64,000 bases of DNA from contig NZ_SLWX01000013.1 of the NCBI RefSeq assembly GCF_004340525.1, forward strand, positions 1 through 64,000. The letters run 5' to 3'. The notes under the pieces were generated by a model. That model saw only the letters and a program-made list of their open reading frames with translations. It was not told where the DNA came from and did no database searches. How positions within the stretch are numbered: position 1 is the first letter of the stretch; every line of letters begins with the position of its first letter. Origin of the DNA: Chromatocurvus halotolerans (GTDB lineage Bacteria; Pseudomonadota; Gammaproteobacteria; Pseudomonadales; Halieaceae). Made by a program: the position numbers and the translations under genes. Positions 13,798-32,476 of the stretch are shown here, piece by piece.

Positions 13798-16194
13798 ATG
13801 ACAGGCACCGCAACCTCCCTCGCACAACCACTGAGCCCGGATGAGCTTGCCGGCATCGACGCCTACTGGCGCGCCTGCAACTACCTGGCAGCGGGCATGA
13901 TCTACCTGCGTGCCAACCCGCTGCTGCGCGAGCCCCTCGCCATCGAGCACATCAAACAGCGACTTCTTGGTCACTGGGGTGCCAGCCCGGGACTCGCTTT
14001 CACTTACGTCCACGCCAACCGGCTGATCCGCCAGCACGACCTCAACGCCATTTTCATTGCCGGGCCCGGTCACGGCGCCCCCGGCGTGCTCGCGCCGGTG
14101 TATCTGGAGGGCAGCTTCTCGGAGGTCTATCCCGACATCAGCGAAGATGAGGAGGGCCTGACGCGCCTGTTCCGACACTTTTCCTTCCCGGGCGGTTTCG
14201 GCAGCCACTGCACGCCGGAGCTGCCCGGCTCGATTCACGAGGGCGGCGAGCTCGGCTACAGCCTGTCCCACGCCTTCGGTGCGGCCTTCGACAATCCCGA
14301 CCTTGTCGTTGTGGCCACTGTCGGGGATGGCGAGGCAGAAACCGGGCCGCTTGCCACCGCCTGGCACTCCAACAAGTTCCTGCATCCTATTCGCGACGGC
14401 GCCGTTCTTCCGGTCCTGCAGCTGAATGGCTACAAGATCAACAATCCGGCACTGCTCGCCCGCATTCCGCGCGACGAGCTGGAGCAGCTGATGTTCGGCT
14501 ATGGCTGGACACCCTTCTTCGTCGAGGGCGATGATCCTGCCATCATGCACCAGCAGATGGCCGCTGCCATGGACGAGTGCCTGTCACTGATTCGCGAGTA
14601 CCAGCAGTCGGCGCGGTCCAGCGGCATTGCCAGCCGACCGCGCTGGCCCATGATCGTGCTGCGCTCTCCCAAGGGCTGGACTGGCCCTGCAGAGGTCAAC
14701 GGCCACCGTGTCGAGGGCAGCTGGCGGGCGCACCAGGTGCCCCTCGGGGATGTACAGGGCAATCCGGAGAGTTTTGCCCAGCTGGAGGCCTGGTTACGCA
14801 GCTACCGGCCACAGGAGCTGTTCGATGACAGGGGTCGCCTGCGTGATGATCTGCGGCAGCTCGCGCCGCAGGGCAAGCGCCGGATGGGCTCCAACCCCCA
14901 TGCCAATGGCGGCTTGCTGAAGAGAGACCTGCGTCTGCCGGATTTTCGCAGCTATGCCGTGCCGGTGGCAGAACCGGGGCATGGCCGCGCGATGAACACG
15001 CGGCCGCTGGGCGCCATGCTGCGCGACACCATGGCGCGCAACATGGGCAACTTCCGCGTGTTTGGCCCGGACGAGACCACGTCCAACAAGCTCGATGCCA
15101 TTTATGAGGTCAGCGGCAAGCTGTGGCTGGCTGAACGACGCCCGGAGGATGACGACGGCGGCGAGCTCGATCCCGACGGCCGCGTGCTCGAGATGCTCTC
15201 GGAGCACACACTGGAAGGCTGGCTGGAAGGCTACGTGCTCACAGGCAGACACGGTTTCTTTGCCACATACGAGGCCTTCGCCCATGTCATCGACTCCATG
15301 TACAACCAGCACGCCAAGTGGCTCGACATCTGCGAGAGTCTGCCCTGGCGCGCGCCGATTGCCTCTATCAACCTGCTGATCACATCCACGGTGTGGCGCC
15401 AGGACCACAACGGCTTCACGCACCAGGATCCGGGCTTTATCGACATTGTGGTGAACAAGAGCCCTGCTGTAACGCGCGTCTATCTGCCACCCGATGCCAA
15501 CTGCCTGCTGTCCACCGCGGACCACTGCCTGCGCAGCCACAATGACATCAACGTCATCGTCTGCGACAAGCAGAACCACCTGCAGTACCTGGATATGGAA
15601 TCCGCCATCCGCCACTGCACCAAGGGCATCGGCATCTGGGACTGGGCCAGCACCGATCAGGGCAGGGAGCCGGACCTGGTGATGGCCGGCTGCGGCGACA
15701 TCGCAACGCAGGAAGCACTGGCAGCCACCGCCCTGCTGCTTGAGCAGTTCCCCGACCTGCGGGTGCGTTTCGTCAATGTGGTTGACCTGTTTCGTATTGC
15801 GCCGGCCGAGGAGCACCCCCACGGCCTCAGTGACCGCGATTTCGACAGCCTGTTCACCATGGACAGGCCGGTGATCTTCAACTTTCACGGTTACCCCTGG
15901 CTGATTCACCGCCTGGCCTATCGCCGCCACAACCACCGCAACCTGCATGTGCGAGGCTATAAGGAAAAAGGCAGCATCAATACCCCGATGGAGCTGGCGA
16001 TCGAGAACAACGTGGACCGCTTCAGCCTCGCCATCGACGCCATCGACCGTGTGCCGCGACTGCAGGCAAGCGGCGCTCACGCCAAGGAGGCCCTGCGCAA
16101 CCGGCAGATCGACTGTCGCCAGTATGCGCACGTACACGGCGTGGACATGCCAGAGGTCAGCGGCTGGAACTGGCCTGGCCTGCGGAAATCCTGA
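13798..16194 (+). CDS. xfp: xylulose-5-phosphate/fructose-6-phosphate phosphoketolase
   Basis: This is a thiamine-diphosphate enzyme of 798 aa, the expected length. It splits xylulose 5-P (and possibly fructose 6-P) into acetyl phosphate and an aldose phosphate. Recognisable segments are [21 protein letters not shown] with [16 protein letters not shown], the TPP/Mg site [18 protein letters not shown], and a C-terminal [17 protein letters not shown] lies upstream of the ATG. The ackA-xfp pairing defines a phosphoketolase bypass, giving carbon-conserving acetyl-phosphate formation without pyruvate decarboxylation. Substrate preference cannot be read from sequence. Confidence 0.96.
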
Positions 16195-22514: not shown

Positions 22515-22673
22515 ATGAACAAGAATGAAGTCAAAGGTCGTGCAAATGAGGCAAAAGGCAAGGCAAAGGAAGTCACCGGCAAACTGACCGGCGATAAGGG
22601 CACAGAAGCCAAAGGCAAAGTCGAAAAACACAGCGGCAAGGCCAAGCGCGACGTCGCGAAAGAAAAAAAGTAA
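22515..22673 (+). CDS. CsbD family stress-response protein (first copy)
   Basis: This is a 52-aa, highly charged, Lys/Gly/Ala-rich protein with the CsbD pattern NEVKGRANEAKGKAKEVTGKL. CsbD proteins are small, soluble and general-stress-induced, with unknown function. AGGAGA lies about ten bases before the ATG. It is too short for many gene callers. A second family member lies at 32711. Confidence 0.9.
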   Translation: MNKNEVKGRANEAKGKAKEVTGKLTGDKGTEAKGKVEKHSGKAKRDVAKEKK

Positions 22674-22698: not shown

Positions 22699-22719
22699 CT
22701 GAACGCCAAAAACGTTCAG
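22699..22719 (+). terminator. hairpin after the first csbD-like gene
   Basis: CTGAACG (22699-22705) pairs with CGTTCAG (22713-22719) around an A-rich 7-base loop. No T run follows, so it may be a weak terminator or an mRNA-stabilising structure. Confidence 0.4.
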
Positions 22720-22798
22720 ACGGGAACGTGGGTCGTAGGGTGACGGCAGCACTGCCGCCAGCCCTGTTCAATTACGATAGATTACGGACGAGGTAAAC

Positions 22799-23014
22799 AT
22801 GACGAGTCATCGAATTCTGGCTGTGGTTCTGCTGGTTGTGGGATCAATTCTGCTGTTTTTTGCCTATCAGTCCTCCCAGAGTCTGGGCGACCAGGTTTCG
22901 GAGGCCGTGACCGGTCAGTTCACTGACGCCACGACCTGGTATCTGATTCTCGGAGCCGCGTCTGTCGTGGCCGGCGGGGTCATGCTGCTTTCGAAACGAT
23001 CCGGAGGTAGTTAA
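22799..23014 (+). CDS. DUF3185-like small membrane protein
   Basis: This is a 71-aa protein with two transmembrane helices separated by a short polar loop (QSSQSLGDQVSEAVTGQFTD, beginning after the first helix) and a basic C-terminus. The pattern fits DUF3185, found next to envelope-stress genes. AGGT-type ribosome site upstream. It sits 14 bases before the original start of the interrupted AI-2E-type gene and may have been co-transcribed with it. Confidence 0.75.
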   Translation: MTSHRILAVVLLVVGSILLFFAYQSSQSLGDQVSEAVTGQFTDATTWYLILGAASVVAGGVMLLSKRSGGS

Positions 23015-23091
23015 AGCAGGAATACCCGATGCCGCAAAAGATCGAGGAATCCGGGTTCGATGAGGAGAGGGGCGGCACTCATGATCCATCC

Positions 23092-23099
23092 ACGGTACC
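23092..23099. repeat. left copy of 8-bp target-site duplication (ACGGTACC)
   Basis: ACGGTACC directly abuts the left inverted repeat of the IS element and is repeated exactly at 24425-24432. Eight base pairs is a usual duplication length for IS256-family transposition. An intact duplication indicates insertion without later rearrangement. Confidence 0.92.
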
Positions 23100-23129
23100 G
23101 AGGGTGTAAATTTTACTGTGTAAATGGTC
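23100..23129 (+). repeat. left terminal inverted repeat of the IS256-family element
   Basis: It begins GAGGGTGTAAA and contains CTGTGTAAATGG, matching the reverse complement of 24395-24424 at 24 of 30 positions. Confidence 0.88.
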
Positions 23130-23159
23130 ATCGAACTATACTGCCCACAGGAGGCAACG

Positions 23160-24386
23160 ATGACCAATCTCACAGAAAAACAAAAGTCCCTGCTCGACGA
23201 ACTGCTCAAGGACTTTGACGGCGACGCCGAGTCGCTGCTCGGCAAAAACGGCCTGATGATGCAGCTCAAGAAGCGCGCGGTAGAAACCATGCTCGAGGGC
23301 GAAATTACCGACCACCTGGGCTACGAGCCCAGTGATTCCGCTGGCAACGGCTCAGGAAATTCCCGCAACGGCCGAACCGGCAAGACTGTCCAGAGCAAGG
23401 ATGGGCCCTTCGAGATTTCCGTGCCACGGGATCGCAACAGCAGCTTTGATCCTCAGGTTATTCGCAAGGGCCAGCGCCGGATGGATGGCATTGACGACGT
23501 CATTGTCTCCTTCTACGCACGCGGACTCAGCACCCGGGAGATTCAGGCGGAACTGAAGGAGCTTTACGGCGCCGACGTGTCGCCAACGCTGATCTCCAAC
23601 GTCACCAACACGGTTCTCGACGAGGTTAAAGCCTGGCAGGCGCGCCCTCTAGACGAGGTCTACCCGATCATCTACTTCGACTGCCTGTTCGTGAAATCAC
23701 GGGAAGACGGCACCATCGTCAACAAGGCGGTGTATCTGGCCCTTGGCATCAACATGGACGGCGAGAAGGAATTGCTCGGCCTGTGGCTTTCCAACACGGA
23801 AGGTGCCAAGTTCTGGCTCACCGTGTTTAACGAGCTCAAGACCCGCGGATTGAATGATTGCTTCATCGCCTGCGTGGACGGCCTTAAGGGCCTGCCAGAG
23901 GCCATAGAAGCGGTTTATCCACACACCCGGGTTCAACTGTGCATTGTTCATCAGGTTCGCAACAGCCTGAAATACGTGTCCTGGAAAGACCGCAAGAAAG
24001 TCGCCAGTGGGTTGCGCGCCATCTACACGGCACCCACTCCTGACGCCGCCAGAACGTCTCTCGACAGCTTTGCCGACCAATGGGGCGAGCAGTATCCGGC
24101 AATCGTGCCGAGCTGGGAACGCAACTGGGAGCGCCTGATTCCGTTCTTCGATTACCCGCCTGCGATTCGCAAGGTGGTCTACACCACCAACGCGATTGAG
24201 TCGCTGAATTACAGCATGCGCAAAGTGATCAAGGGCCGCGGCGCATTCCCCAACGACGATGCGATCAGGAAGCTGCTGTATCTGGGCTTACAGAATGCAT
24301 CAAAGAAGTGGACGATGCCGATCCGCGACTGGAAAGCGGCGCTGAACCAGTTCATTATTCTGTACGGTGACAGGGTACCTGTCTGA
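23160..24386 (+). CDS. IS256-family transposase (mutator type)
   Basis: This is an intact 408-aa transposase. The DDE residues are visible as Asp in IIYFDCLFVK, Asp in ACVDGLKGLPEAI and Glu in YTTNAIESLN, the usual IS256 signature. An N-terminal DNA-binding region precedes a LGYEPSD-type segment. AGGAGG lies six bases before the ATG at 23160. An in-frame GTG/ATG extension upstream would enter the inverted repeat and is rejected. It should cut and join the terminal repeats to move the element. Confidence 0.96.
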   Translation: MTNLTEKQKSLLDELLKDFDGDAESLLGKNGLMMQLKKRAVETMLEGEITDHLGYEPSDSAGNGSGNSRNGRTGKTVQSKDGPFEISVPRDRNSSFDPQVIRKGQRRMDGIDDVIVSFYARGLSTREIQAELKELYGADVSPTLISNVTNTVLDEVKAWQARPLDEVYPIIYFDCLFVKSREDGTIVNKAVYLALGINMDGEKELLGLWLSNTEGAKFWLTVFNELKTRGLNDCFIACVDGLKGLPEAIEAVYPHTRVQLCIVHQVRNSLKYVSWKDRKKVASGLRAIYTAPTPDAARTSLDSFADQWGEQYPAIVPSWERNWERLIPFFDYPPAIRKVVYTTNAIESLNYSMRKVIKGRGAFPNDDAIRKLLYLGLQNASKKWTMPIRDWKAALNQFIILYGDRVPV

Positions 24387-24394
24387 CATGAACC

Positions 24395-24424
24395 GGCCAT
24401 TTACACAGAAATCTTCATACCCTC
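24395..24424 (-). repeat. right terminal inverted repeat of the IS256-family element
   Basis: It ends CATACCCTC next to the duplicated ACGGTACC. On the minus strand it begins GAGGGTATGAA and shares the CTGTGTAAATGG core with the left end. Confidence 0.88.
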
Positions 24425-24432
24425 ACGGTACC
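24425..24432. repeat. right copy of 8-bp target-site duplication (ACGGTACC)
   Basis: This is an exact repeat of 23092-23099, directly after the right inverted repeat. It also codes residues of the interrupted transporter gene. Confidence 0.92.
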
Positions 24433-24484
24433 GGCCAGGCGACTGTTCAACGCGTTTGAGCTTCGTCTGTTCCGCTACACCGCA

Positions 24485-25537
24485 GTGCTTTTTTCTCTGG
24501 TGGCACTCACGGCGCTGGTGGTCATCATCGTATGGTCGTTCGGCTGGGTACTGAATGCCTTCTACAACCTGCTGCTTTCGCTTGCCATCGCCGGCGTTCT
24601 TGCACTGGTATTGCACCCGGTCGCCGAATTTCTTGAGAAAAGGCTACGTCTGCCACACTTGCTGGCCATCGTTCTTTTACTCACCGTCTTCTTCTTCAGT
24701 ATCTTCAGCCTGATCGCCCTCCTGGTCCCGGTGCTCGTCAGCCAGGCAGTGCAGCTGATGACCGTGATACCCGAAGTGCTCCTGAGCTGGCAGTCGTATC
24801 TCGAATTTCATTATCCCGAAGTGAGCGACGTACTTGCCGAGCGCTTGACAGGCGACGATAACGACGTCGCTGGCGCGGACCTCGCAGGTACGGGCAATAC
24901 CATCATGTCCTATCTTGGAATGTTTGCGGGCATCATTTTCATGCCTCTATTCCTTTTCTTCACGCTATTCTCCGGCGATTTACTCCGCGACAAGGCATCC
25001 GAACTGCTGTCAGTATTCCAGAACCGCACCCAGGAAAAGGCGCTGTATTTCATGGACGTGTTCGTGCAGTACATCACCGCCTTTTTCCAGGGGCAGCTAC
25101 TCATTGCCGTGTGCATGGGAACCCTTTACGCAATCAGTTTCACCTTGATAGGCCTGGAGTTCGGGGTTCTGGTCGGACTGGTCCTCGGCATGCTGAATAT
25201 CGTTCCCTTCCTGGGCACCATGATCGGACTGATCGTGGTGCTGCCCATGGCCTATCTTCAGCCAGAGGGCGGTATCGAGCTACTGATCATGACGGGCGTG
25301 GTATTCGCCGCCGTTCAACTGATCGAGAGCTGGATTCTGACACCGAGAATCATGGCGGAACGCTCGGGGCTGCACCCGGCGCTTGTCATCATTTCGCTGT
25401 TTTTCTGGGGTACCGCGCTGAACGGCGTTATCGGCATGATACTCGCGGTTCCCCTCACCGCCTTCTTTGTTGCTATCTGGAGTGAGATCAAGGCGAGCCT
25501 CGTCCACACGCTGAGCTCGCGGGAAACCAAGGTCTGA
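24485..25537 (+). CDS. residual open frame of an AI-2E-type (YdiK/PerM) transporter
   Basis: This is a 350-aa polytopic membrane protein with the long hydrophobic N-terminal pair, a soluble central segment rich in acidic residues, and C-terminal helices containing GLVLGMLNIVPFLGTMIGL in part. It fits the AI-2E/UPF0118 family, whose members export small signals or ions. GTG at 24485 is the first usable start after the IS, but it lacks a good ribosome site and would remove about 40 N-terminal cytoplasmic residues. Expression would need a promoter in or after the IS element. Treat as probably inactive. Confidence 0.7.
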   Translation: MLFSLVALTALVVIIVWSFGWVLNAFYNLLLSLAIAGVLALVLHPVAEFLEKRLRLPHLLAIVLLLTVFFFSIFSLIALLVPVLVSQAVQLMTVIPEVLLSWQSYLEFHYPEVSDVLAERLTGDDNDVAGADLAGTGNTIMSYLGMFAGIIFMPLFLFFTLFSGDLLRDKASELLSVFQNRTQEKALYFMDVFVQYITAFFQGQLLIAVCMGTLYAISFTLIGLEFGVLVGLVLGMLNIVPFLGTMIGLIVVLPMAYLQPEGGIELLIMTGVVFAAVQLIESWILTPRIMAERSGLHPALVIISLFFWGTALNGVIGMILAVPLTAFFVAIWSEIKASLVHTLSSRETKV

Positions 25538-25644
25538 AGCAAGCGCCTGCCGCCGTTAACTATCGGTGCGCCGGCGCACAGATTAACTTGCTGGCTAATG
25601 TCATGCTCCGATTGAACCCACCCGAAGCATGGAGAAGAAACATC

Positions 25645-25956
25645 ATGAACCCCATCAAGACAATCCTGGCGGCGCTACTTGCCATCACCCTGATGAGCAC
25701 GCTCGGCTGCGCGGGAAGCGCCACTGACGAGAGCACCGGCGAGTACATCGACGACACGGTAATCACCACCAAGGTCAAGGCTGCCCTGGTCGAGGATTCC
25801 ACCGTCAAATCGCGTGAGGTCAGCGTAGAAACCTTCAAGGGCGTTGTGCAACTCAGTGGCTTTGTGGAATCACGGGATGCCATGAACAGGGCTGTGGAAA
25901 TTGCCGGCGGCATCGATGGAGTCAGTTCCGTCAAAAACAACATGACCATTAAGTAA
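25645..25956 (+). CDS. BON-domain lipoprotein
   Basis: This 103-aa protein has a lipoprotein signal (LMSTLGC lipobox, Cys at about residue 22) followed by one BON domain (DTVITTKVKAALVEDSTV, FKGVVQLSGFV, GVSSVKNNM). BON domains bind phospholipid in OsmY-type envelope proteins. GGAGAAG precedes the ATG. It is an OsmY-like periplasmic or outer-membrane stress component. Confidence 0.92.
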   Translation: MNPIKTILAALLAITLMSTLGCAGSATDESTGEYIDDTVITTKVKAALVEDSTVKSREVSVETFKGVVQLSGFVESRDAMNRAVEIAGGIDGVSSVKNNMTIK

Positions 25957-30775: not shown

Positions 30776-31513
30776 TCATGCCGACCTGGCGCTGCGGGAC
30801 CGCGGCGGCGTACTCAGCAATCGATCTGACTCTCTTTTCACCACTGAGTAACACTCACAGCTGAGTCGCTCCAGTTCAGGTCTGTCGAGTACCTTTATTT
30901 TGCCACGACGGTATTCAATGACCCCCTTTTTCTGCAGTTTTCCCGCTGCGTCGGTGACGCCCTCTCGCCGTACACCCAGCATGTTGGCGATCAGCTCCTG
31001 GGTCATGGTCAGTTCGTCCGAGGACAGCCGGTCAAGCGAAAGCAGCAGCCAGCGGCACAACTGCTGGTCGATACTGTGATGCCGGTTGCACACCGCGGTC
31101 TGCGCCATCTGGGTGATCAACGCCTGCGTGTAGCGCAATAACAGCGTCATCAACTCGCCGTGGCGGTGAAACTCGTCGACGAGCCTCTGGCCGAGCAGCC
31201 GGTAGGCACTGCCACCGCTCTGCACCACGGCCCGGCTGGAGGTACTCTCTCCGCCCATGAACAGCGAAATGCCGACAATGCCCTCATTGCCCACCACGGA
31301 AATTTCCGCTGACGACCCGCTCTCCATGACATACAGCAACGACACAATGCTGTCCGTGGGAAAGTAAACGTGGCGCATTCTGTCACCGGCCTCATACATG
31401 ACCTTGCCAAGCGGTATCGGCACGTGTTCAAGGTAGGGGAACAGCCGTTCCTGGATATCGACTGAGAGGGCAGCGAGAAGGTGATTCTGTTCCGGATGTG
31501 CGGCCGGCTCCAT
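30776..31513 (-). CDS. Crp/Fnr family transcriptional regulator (first paralogue)
   Basis: This 245-aa protein has a cyclic-nucleotide-binding-like beta barrel (VMYEAGDRMRHVYFPTDSIVS in pieces) and a C-terminal winged helix (MTQELIANMLGVRREGVT). None of the N-terminal cysteines typical of FNR are present, so oxygen sensing by an iron-sulfur cluster is unlikely. The effector is unknown. ATG at 31513 has AGGAG nine bases upstream. A longer reading to 31600 lacks a ribosome site. A similar regulator lies directly upstream at 31718, and the two probably arose by duplication. Confidence 0.9.
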   Translation of the reverse strand: MEPAAHPEQNHLLAALSVDIQERLFPYLEHVPIPLGKVMYEAGDRMRHVYFPTDSIVSLLYVMESGSSAEISVVGNEGIVGISLFMGGESTSSRAVVQSGGSAYRLLGQRLVDEFHRHGELMTLLLRYTQALITQMAQTAVCNRHHSIDQQLCRWLLLSLDRLSSDELTMTQELIANMLGVRREGVTDAAGKLQKKGVIEYRRGKIKVLDRPELERLSCECYSVVKRESDRLLSTPPRSRSARSA

Positions 31514-31683
31514 GGCTATGCTCCTGAAATACAGGCTTTGGTTTATGTTGTGATGGTGTTTTCCTGGCACACGCGTGACCATAGACTGCATGGCGGCCAT
31601 GGGCGCCGGAATACCGTAGACACGCTCGGTTCATGCGGCGTACTTCCACCACAGACAAGACTACCTCGCACCGCTGCTAACTC

Positions 31684-31717: not shown

Positions 31718-32476
31718 TCAGGCTTTGTCGGGCACACATTCAGACGCGTATCGCGGGAACATGGCCTGGTAATTCTCAATACCCGCGCGGTAGCAGCCGC
31801 AGGCGACAGCCTCCAGTCCGGCGCGATCCAGTATCGCTATCCGTCCCCGACTGTAGCGGATAATGCCGCGGCGCTGCAGCTTTGCTGCGGCAATCGTGAC
31901 GGAGCCTCTCTGCACGCCAAGCATGTCCGCAAGGAGCCTGTGCGTGAGTACCGGCAGGTCATCGGCGCTGACGCGATCATGCGCCAGCAGCAGTGCGCGC
32001 GCCAGACGGCTCCCGACATCATGAAAGCGCACGCAACCCGCCGACTGTGAAAGCTCGTTCAGCACCAGGTAGAGATAGCGCTGTAAAACCGTCTGCAGCG
32101 CCGGAAACCGGACCATGGCCTCGCGGATCCGTTCACTCTCTATTCGCAAGGCGAGTCCCGCAGCATGCACGACAGCCCGCTGGGGCGCCTGATTTATGCC
32201 CAGCACCAGCGTCGCTCCAAGCATACCCTCGCATCCAATGTTCTCGGTTGCAAAAGGTTCATGGCCATGCACGGTCCGCAGCAGGGAGATACTGCCACTT
32301 ACCGGGAAATAAACGTGACTGAAGGGCTGTCCCACGTCGCAGAGCACCGTGCCGAAAACCAGATTGATCGGGTCACAATTTGCAAGCACCGCTTCGCGCT
32401 GCTGCCTCGGCAAATAGTCTAGCAGCTGGTTTCCCGCAGCAGGCGGATGCCCAACACCGTTTGCGATAGGTGACAT
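31718..32476 (-). CDS. Crp/Fnr family transcriptional regulator (second paralogue)
   Basis: This 252-aa protein has the same architecture as the neighbour at 30776: an effector-binding barrel (VFGTVLCDVGQPFSHVYFPVSG read in pieces) and a winged helix with LLADMLGVQRGSVTIAAAKLQ, nearly the same recognition-helix layout. No FNR-type cysteine cluster is seen. A GAGAG ribosome site precedes the ATG. Divergent from a CsbD gene across a highly palindromic region. A stress or redox regulator of the surrounding small envelope genes is inferred. Confidence 0.9.
   Translation of the reverse strand: MSPIANGVGHPPAAGNQLLDYLPRQQREAVLANCDPINLVFGTVLCDVGQPFSHVYFPVSGSISLLRTVHGHEPFATENIGCEGMLGATLVLGINQAPQRAVVHAAGLALRIESERIREAMVRFPALQTVLQRYLYLVLNELSQSAGCVRFHDVGSRLARALLLAHDRVSADDLPVLTHRLLADMLGVQRGSVTIAAAKLQRRGIIRYSRGRIAILDRAGLEAVACGCYRAGIENYQAMFPRYASECVPDKA

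Follow-up and report, generated by a model that had tools for sequence, protein, structure and literature searches.

An IS256-family insertion sequence in the leader of an AI-2E family transporter gene of Chromatocurvus halotolerans

Results and Discussion

It was found that an IS256-family insertion sequence very probably interrupts the leader of an AI-2E family transporter gene of Chromatocurvus halotolerans, where it is bordered by an 8-bp target duplication and would have effectively silenced the gene (Table 1). The window, which here means the whole stretch of 64,000 nucleotides that was analysed, contains a single copy of the element. It appears to have transposed into codons 22-24 of the transporter gene, behind a DUF3185 gene, and this transposition would have duplicated 8 bp of the target. 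The ribosome site and the ATG at position 23029 would now drive a dead-end peptide of 26 amino acids. The body of the transporter seems to be intact but to have been left without a good start.

Table 1. Features of the interrupted transporter locus. Positions are those of the window.
Feature	Position	Strand	Remarks
CsbD-like gene	22515..22673	+	PF05532, 45.9 bits (cut-off 40); start placed by counting along the frame
DUF3185 gene	22799..23014	+	PF11381, 73.1 bits; followed after 14 nt by the transporter start
Detached 5′ part of the transporter gene, with its start codon and variable leader	23029..23099	+	Joined frame; homologous start in relatives
Target-site repeat ACGGTACC, left copy	23092..23099	no strand	
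IS256-family insertion sequence, single copy	23100..24424	+	1325 bp; inverted ends, PF00872, NF033543
Left terminal inverted repeat	23100..23127	+	28 nt, 82% complementary to 24397-24424
IS256-family transposase, uninterrupted, 408 aa	23160..24386	+	ATG 23160; upstream in-frame ATG 23124 possible
Right terminal inverted repeat	24397..24424	-	Pairs with the left end
Target-site repeat ACGGTACC, right copy	24425..24432	no strand	
Remainder of the AI-2E family gene, including its stop	24433..25537	+	PF01594 and TqsA matches

Boundaries of the element and the joined frame

The original prediction held that removal of the element together with one copy of ACGGTACC leaves 391 amino acids without a stop from the ATG at 23029. 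This was correct to the base. When the flanks are fused with one copy of the repeat (23029-23099 plus 24433-25537), the joined frame encodes 391 amino acids and is then closed by a stop codon. The string common to both flanks is 10 nt in length (CACGGTACCG), and the repeat can be read as 8, 9 or 10 nt. The choice is immaterial, since the joined sequence is identical under each reading. The target duplication of the IS256 family is 8-9 bp, and a repeat of this size was found both here and, as read by eye, around a related copy of the element in another genome, the locus L051 (GCCCCTGC). The terminal inverted repeats are imperfect (28 nt, 82%), as in the IS256 family.

Is the repeat a chance match? 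In the window, 4 of 62,659 positions have an 8-mer that recurs exactly 1333 nt downstream, and over offsets of 1300 to 1366 equal 8-mers were found at 153 of 4,198,153 position/offset pairs. Since these counts are low, a perfect repeat lying exactly at both transposon ends is not due to chance. It was also considered whether the element was wrongly joined to this locus during assembly. The genome is a draft of 45 contigs, which speaks for such an artefact. However, the assembly has just one copy of the element, and a perfect 8-bp target repeat with flanks that are in frame with each other would not arise from a false join. An artefact is thus extremely improbable.

The transposase and relatives of the element

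The transposase is of the Mutator/IS256 type, with 401.1 bits against PF00872 (cut-off 21) and 421.5 bits against the IS256 model NF033543 (cut-off 150). Candidate D, D, and E residues of a DDE catalytic triad are seen by eye in plausible contexts (YFDCLF, CVDGLKG, and NAIES). The source genome has one copy of the element and no PF00872 match other than this transposase, and the end pattern of the element occurs in that genome only at its own two ends, even with up to 3 mismatches allowed.

Diverged or partial matches to the element were found in 9 of 57 other relatives (E 0.001). At E 1e-100 or better, a search of 380 further genomes from the order found matches in only one. These are the full-length copy L051, which is 74% identical, and a second copy that was matched in pieces. 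L051 has the ends GAGG.../...CCCTC at the same places as the window element, and it is flanked by its own two repeat copies. Thus, the ends and the 8-bp repeat of L051 independently support the boundaries and the 8-bp repeat of the window element. That an IS256 element resides inside an AI-2E-type gene, as originally claimed, is borne out by the transposase family, by the target repeat, and by the 8-bp repeat of L051. The searched genomes contain no near-identical full-length copy, the 74% of L051 being the best among the 380 others in the order. On plasmids, 1694 records have a match to the element; the 15 records listed are 68-70% identical over 85% of the element, and five records outside that list have a best-matching stretch at 80-95% identity.

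The window element is like other IS256 family members in its transposase family, size, imperfect inverted ends, 8-bp repeat, and low copy number. An example is ISPaes3, an IS256 member which is described in an excerpt of PMC3281130 as 1393 bp in length, with an inverted repeat of 39/27, an 8-bp repeat, and a low copy number. In a literature search on IS256 target repeats together with AI-2E, AI-2E was absent among the matches listed.

The start codon of the interrupted gene

A genome-contig search gave 21 loci with relatives of the transporter, of which 20 are close and one (L050, 23% identical) was set apart. A single open frame of 381-413 amino acids extends from the assigned start in 17 of the 20 close relatives, while L045 has no clear start. 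The gene is frameshifted in L047 and L048 (278 and 249 amino acids). The loci L048 (4001-5103) and L047 (4001-5094) come from Thiohalobacter thiocyanaticus Hrh1 and a Marinobacter MAG, and the frameshifts may be sequencing errors or real decay. In L048, the transporter is in two pieces with 62% and 81% identity to that of the window.

The 19 assigned starts comprise 18 ATG codons and one GTG codon. The strongest single support for ATG 23029 is the spacing behind the DUF3185 gene: in the window, the DUF3185 stop lies 14 nt from the transporter start, and the same distance was seen in 9 of the 11 relatives with this gene, the other two having 82 and 146 nt. By eye, the motif GCAGGA was found ahead of the window start and ahead of 11 of the 19 assigned starts in relatives. 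The distance from the start to the LFRxT motif is 36 codons in 14 of the 19 relatives and 35 codons in the joined window frame; it is 22, 25, 25, 32, and 37 codons in the remaining five, and the start is thus not uniform. This agreement is partly a matter of choice, because the starts were picked by hand among candidates and the homologous place was preferred when there were several (for example, in L033, L034, L038, and L043).

Eighteen relatives were aligned with the joined frame. L045, the frameshifted L047 and L048, and L050, which was not taken as an orthologue, were left out of the alignment, as were L003, L026, and L029, which have a different or unclear N-terminus, and L025 and L027, which are apparent duplicates of L049 and L042. 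Among the matches from the genome set, L028 fits the homologous start and is in the alignment, and the start of L026 is unclear. The leader is weakly conserved, with a P at position 2 in 12 of the 18 relatives, and conservation starts around RLFNAxELRLFRYTA. Thus, the element sits in the variable leader.

The claim of a good ATG start at 23029 is supported by the homologous start and the 14-nt spacing in the relatives. The original prediction had further staked the reconstruction on relatives that start at the same place and carry the N-terminal segment MPQKIEES. The first part held, as the homologous codon is the start in the close relatives. The segment MPQKIEES, by contrast, is not conserved, the leaders of the relatives resembling it only loosely. 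Moreover, the distant homologues L029 (52% identical) and L003 (44% identical) have other N-termini.

Probable effect of the insertion on expression

With the element present, ATG 23029 reads 26 codons and then meets a stop inside the inserted sequence. Followed upstream, the frame of the transporter body stays open as far as a TGA at 24389, and its first ATG, GTG, or TTG codon is the GTG at 24485. Might the transporter still work as a form of 350 amino acids from this GTG, by read-through or from a hybrid promoter of the element? PF01594 is complete in frame from GTG 24485, and IS256-family elements can activate their neighbours, a hybrid promoter having been suggested for one of them (in an excerpt of PMC3281130). 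However, no sequence like a ribosome site is seen by eye ahead of GTG 24485, and the conserved segment around RLFNAxELRLFRYTA would be missing. A consensus scan for sigma-70 sites in 22700-25700 found one site in all, compared with 1.3 in shuffled sequences, and none on the + strand, where an outward promoter of the element would lie; this is a weak test, as the transposase is also without such a site. A working form of 350 amino acids is thus unlikely, and effective silencing is the preferred reading.

It was also considered that the element may be a reversible switch, whose precise excision would restore the 391-amino-acid transporter in part of the population. A paper cited in PMC3281130 reportedly describes on-off switching in its title, for IS256 and the Staphylococcus epidermidis polysaccharide adhesin. 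If this were true here, the DUF3185-paired transporter would be turned on and off, but I regard such a switch as highly improbable.

Age of the insertion and constraint on the gene

The original prediction called the insertion recent because both halves remain clean. The frame is indeed clean, with neither a stop nor a frameshift, and a recent insertion is plausible. A single base change could create a stop codon in 24434-25534 by 84 routes, and the finding of zero stops loosely bounds the neutral divergence to at most about 0.107 per site (95%, equal rates). With a limit of roughly 0.11 per site, the word "recent" is loosely supported. An empty site was looked for in the genus, which the genome comparison covered by the source genome alone, and none was seen.

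Alternatively, the gene may already have been under relaxed constraint, or the insertion may not be recent and the frame may have stayed clean by luck. Of the 119 columns in which all 18 relatives agree, the fragment departs at 7; in a leave-one-out count the relatives themselves depart at 0 to 8 columns, and only one of the 18 (L043) exceeds 7. In addition, the end branch of the window fragment is the longest in the transporter tree (0.66-0.67, the next being 0.58), although this tree is weakly resolved, with 3 of 16 inner branches starred and 11 open, the window unplaced, and the root for drawing only. On the other hand, only one of the seven deviations (N/E) is not conservative, the others being L/I, L/F, V/M, L/M, L/I, and I/V. 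Moreover, the fragment has neither stops nor frameshifts, the two copies of the 8-bp repeat match perfectly, and the reading frame of the transposase is uninterrupted. An old insertion or an already relaxed gene is therefore not a likely explanation. The deviations and the long branch lean weakly to some relaxation before or after the insertion.

The transporter body and its family

The part of the gene downstream of the element (24485-25534) matches positions 3-324 of the 327 positions of the PF01594 profile with 160.9 bits (cut-off 34.3). The AI-2E domain is thus located entirely beyond the element, and the transport domain is not split; what the element has cut off is the ribosome site, the start codon, and the variable leader. 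Among proteins of solved structure, a sequence search at E 0.1 or better found a single relative, TqsA of Escherichia coli (PDB 7nb6), which matches residues 22-345 of the 367-amino-acid downstream fragment (24434-25534) at E 6.6e-08. The two proteins have PF01594 across the whole domain in common, while their sequences are distant (35.4 bits). The transporter matched three NCBIfam models, in each case with a score under the cut-off.

The AI-2E family includes autoinducer-2 exporters and Na+(Li+)/H+ antiporters (excerpts of PMC9134010, PMC5379678, and PMC7221264). The UPF0118 group of Na+(Li+)/H+ antiporters is represented by that of Halobacillus andaensis (excerpts of PMC5379678 and PMC7221264), and its signature residues are given as D251, R292, R293, E296, and S307 in the excerpt of PMC7221264. 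The window transporter belongs to the same Pfam-level family, but these signature residues are absent by eye at the corresponding places, and the antiporter reading was set aside. In a comparison of motifs B to D by eye with the consensus in that excerpt, KAQ is replaced by QGQ, DF.PI.GS by NIVPFLGT, and RRTVEPKVMG...GLS by ESWILTPRIMA...GLH.

The source genome encodes three further AI-2E homologues with 25-30% identity. Thus, loss of the interrupted transporter need not end the function of the family in this organism.

Neighbourhood and spread of the transporter gene

In the 20 named loci (L030-L049), a DUF3185 gene lies just upstream of the transporter gene in 11 and a CsbD-like gene lies upstream in 9. 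The CsbD-DUF3185-AI-2E neighbourhood recurs in Gammaproteobacteria, many of which are halophiles or alkaliphiles by name. The constant 14-nt gap of the recurring DUF3185-AI-2E pair suggests that the two proteins may act together. A literature search for DUF3185 found no paper in the collection searched.

Other genes of the window were also noted. A gene pair on the - strand (30776-31600 and 31718-32476), the first of which encodes a Crp-type regulator, is located about 5 kb downstream of the window transporter. In 4 of the 20 loci (L034, L037, L043, and L049), homologues of both genes are adjacent to each other, about 1.4-4 kb upstream of the transporter gene, with identities of 68-76% and 43-47%. 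In one further genome (G041, locus L061), the pair is about 7 kb from the transporter and is 67% and 44% identical. The window also has a phosphoketolase gene (13798-16194, + strand) with all three domains (PF09364, PF03894, and PF09363).

At E 1e-60 or better, no close relative of the transporter was found in the 36 other genomes searched within the family; within the order, 6 of 389 further genomes have one at E 1e-75 or better. Copies that are about 61-73% identical exist in several other families. Because the close relatives are patchy and yet present in other families, their distribution suggests that the transporter gene may have been spread by horizontal transfer.

Conclusion

In sum, this is an ordinary insertion by an IS256-family element; the start codon of the interrupted gene is well supported, and the age of the insertion is loosely bounded. 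For annotation, the locus is one interrupted gene that starts from 23029, not a gene of 350 amino acids from GTG 24485. As an instance of a gene disrupted by an insertion sequence, it is well documented.
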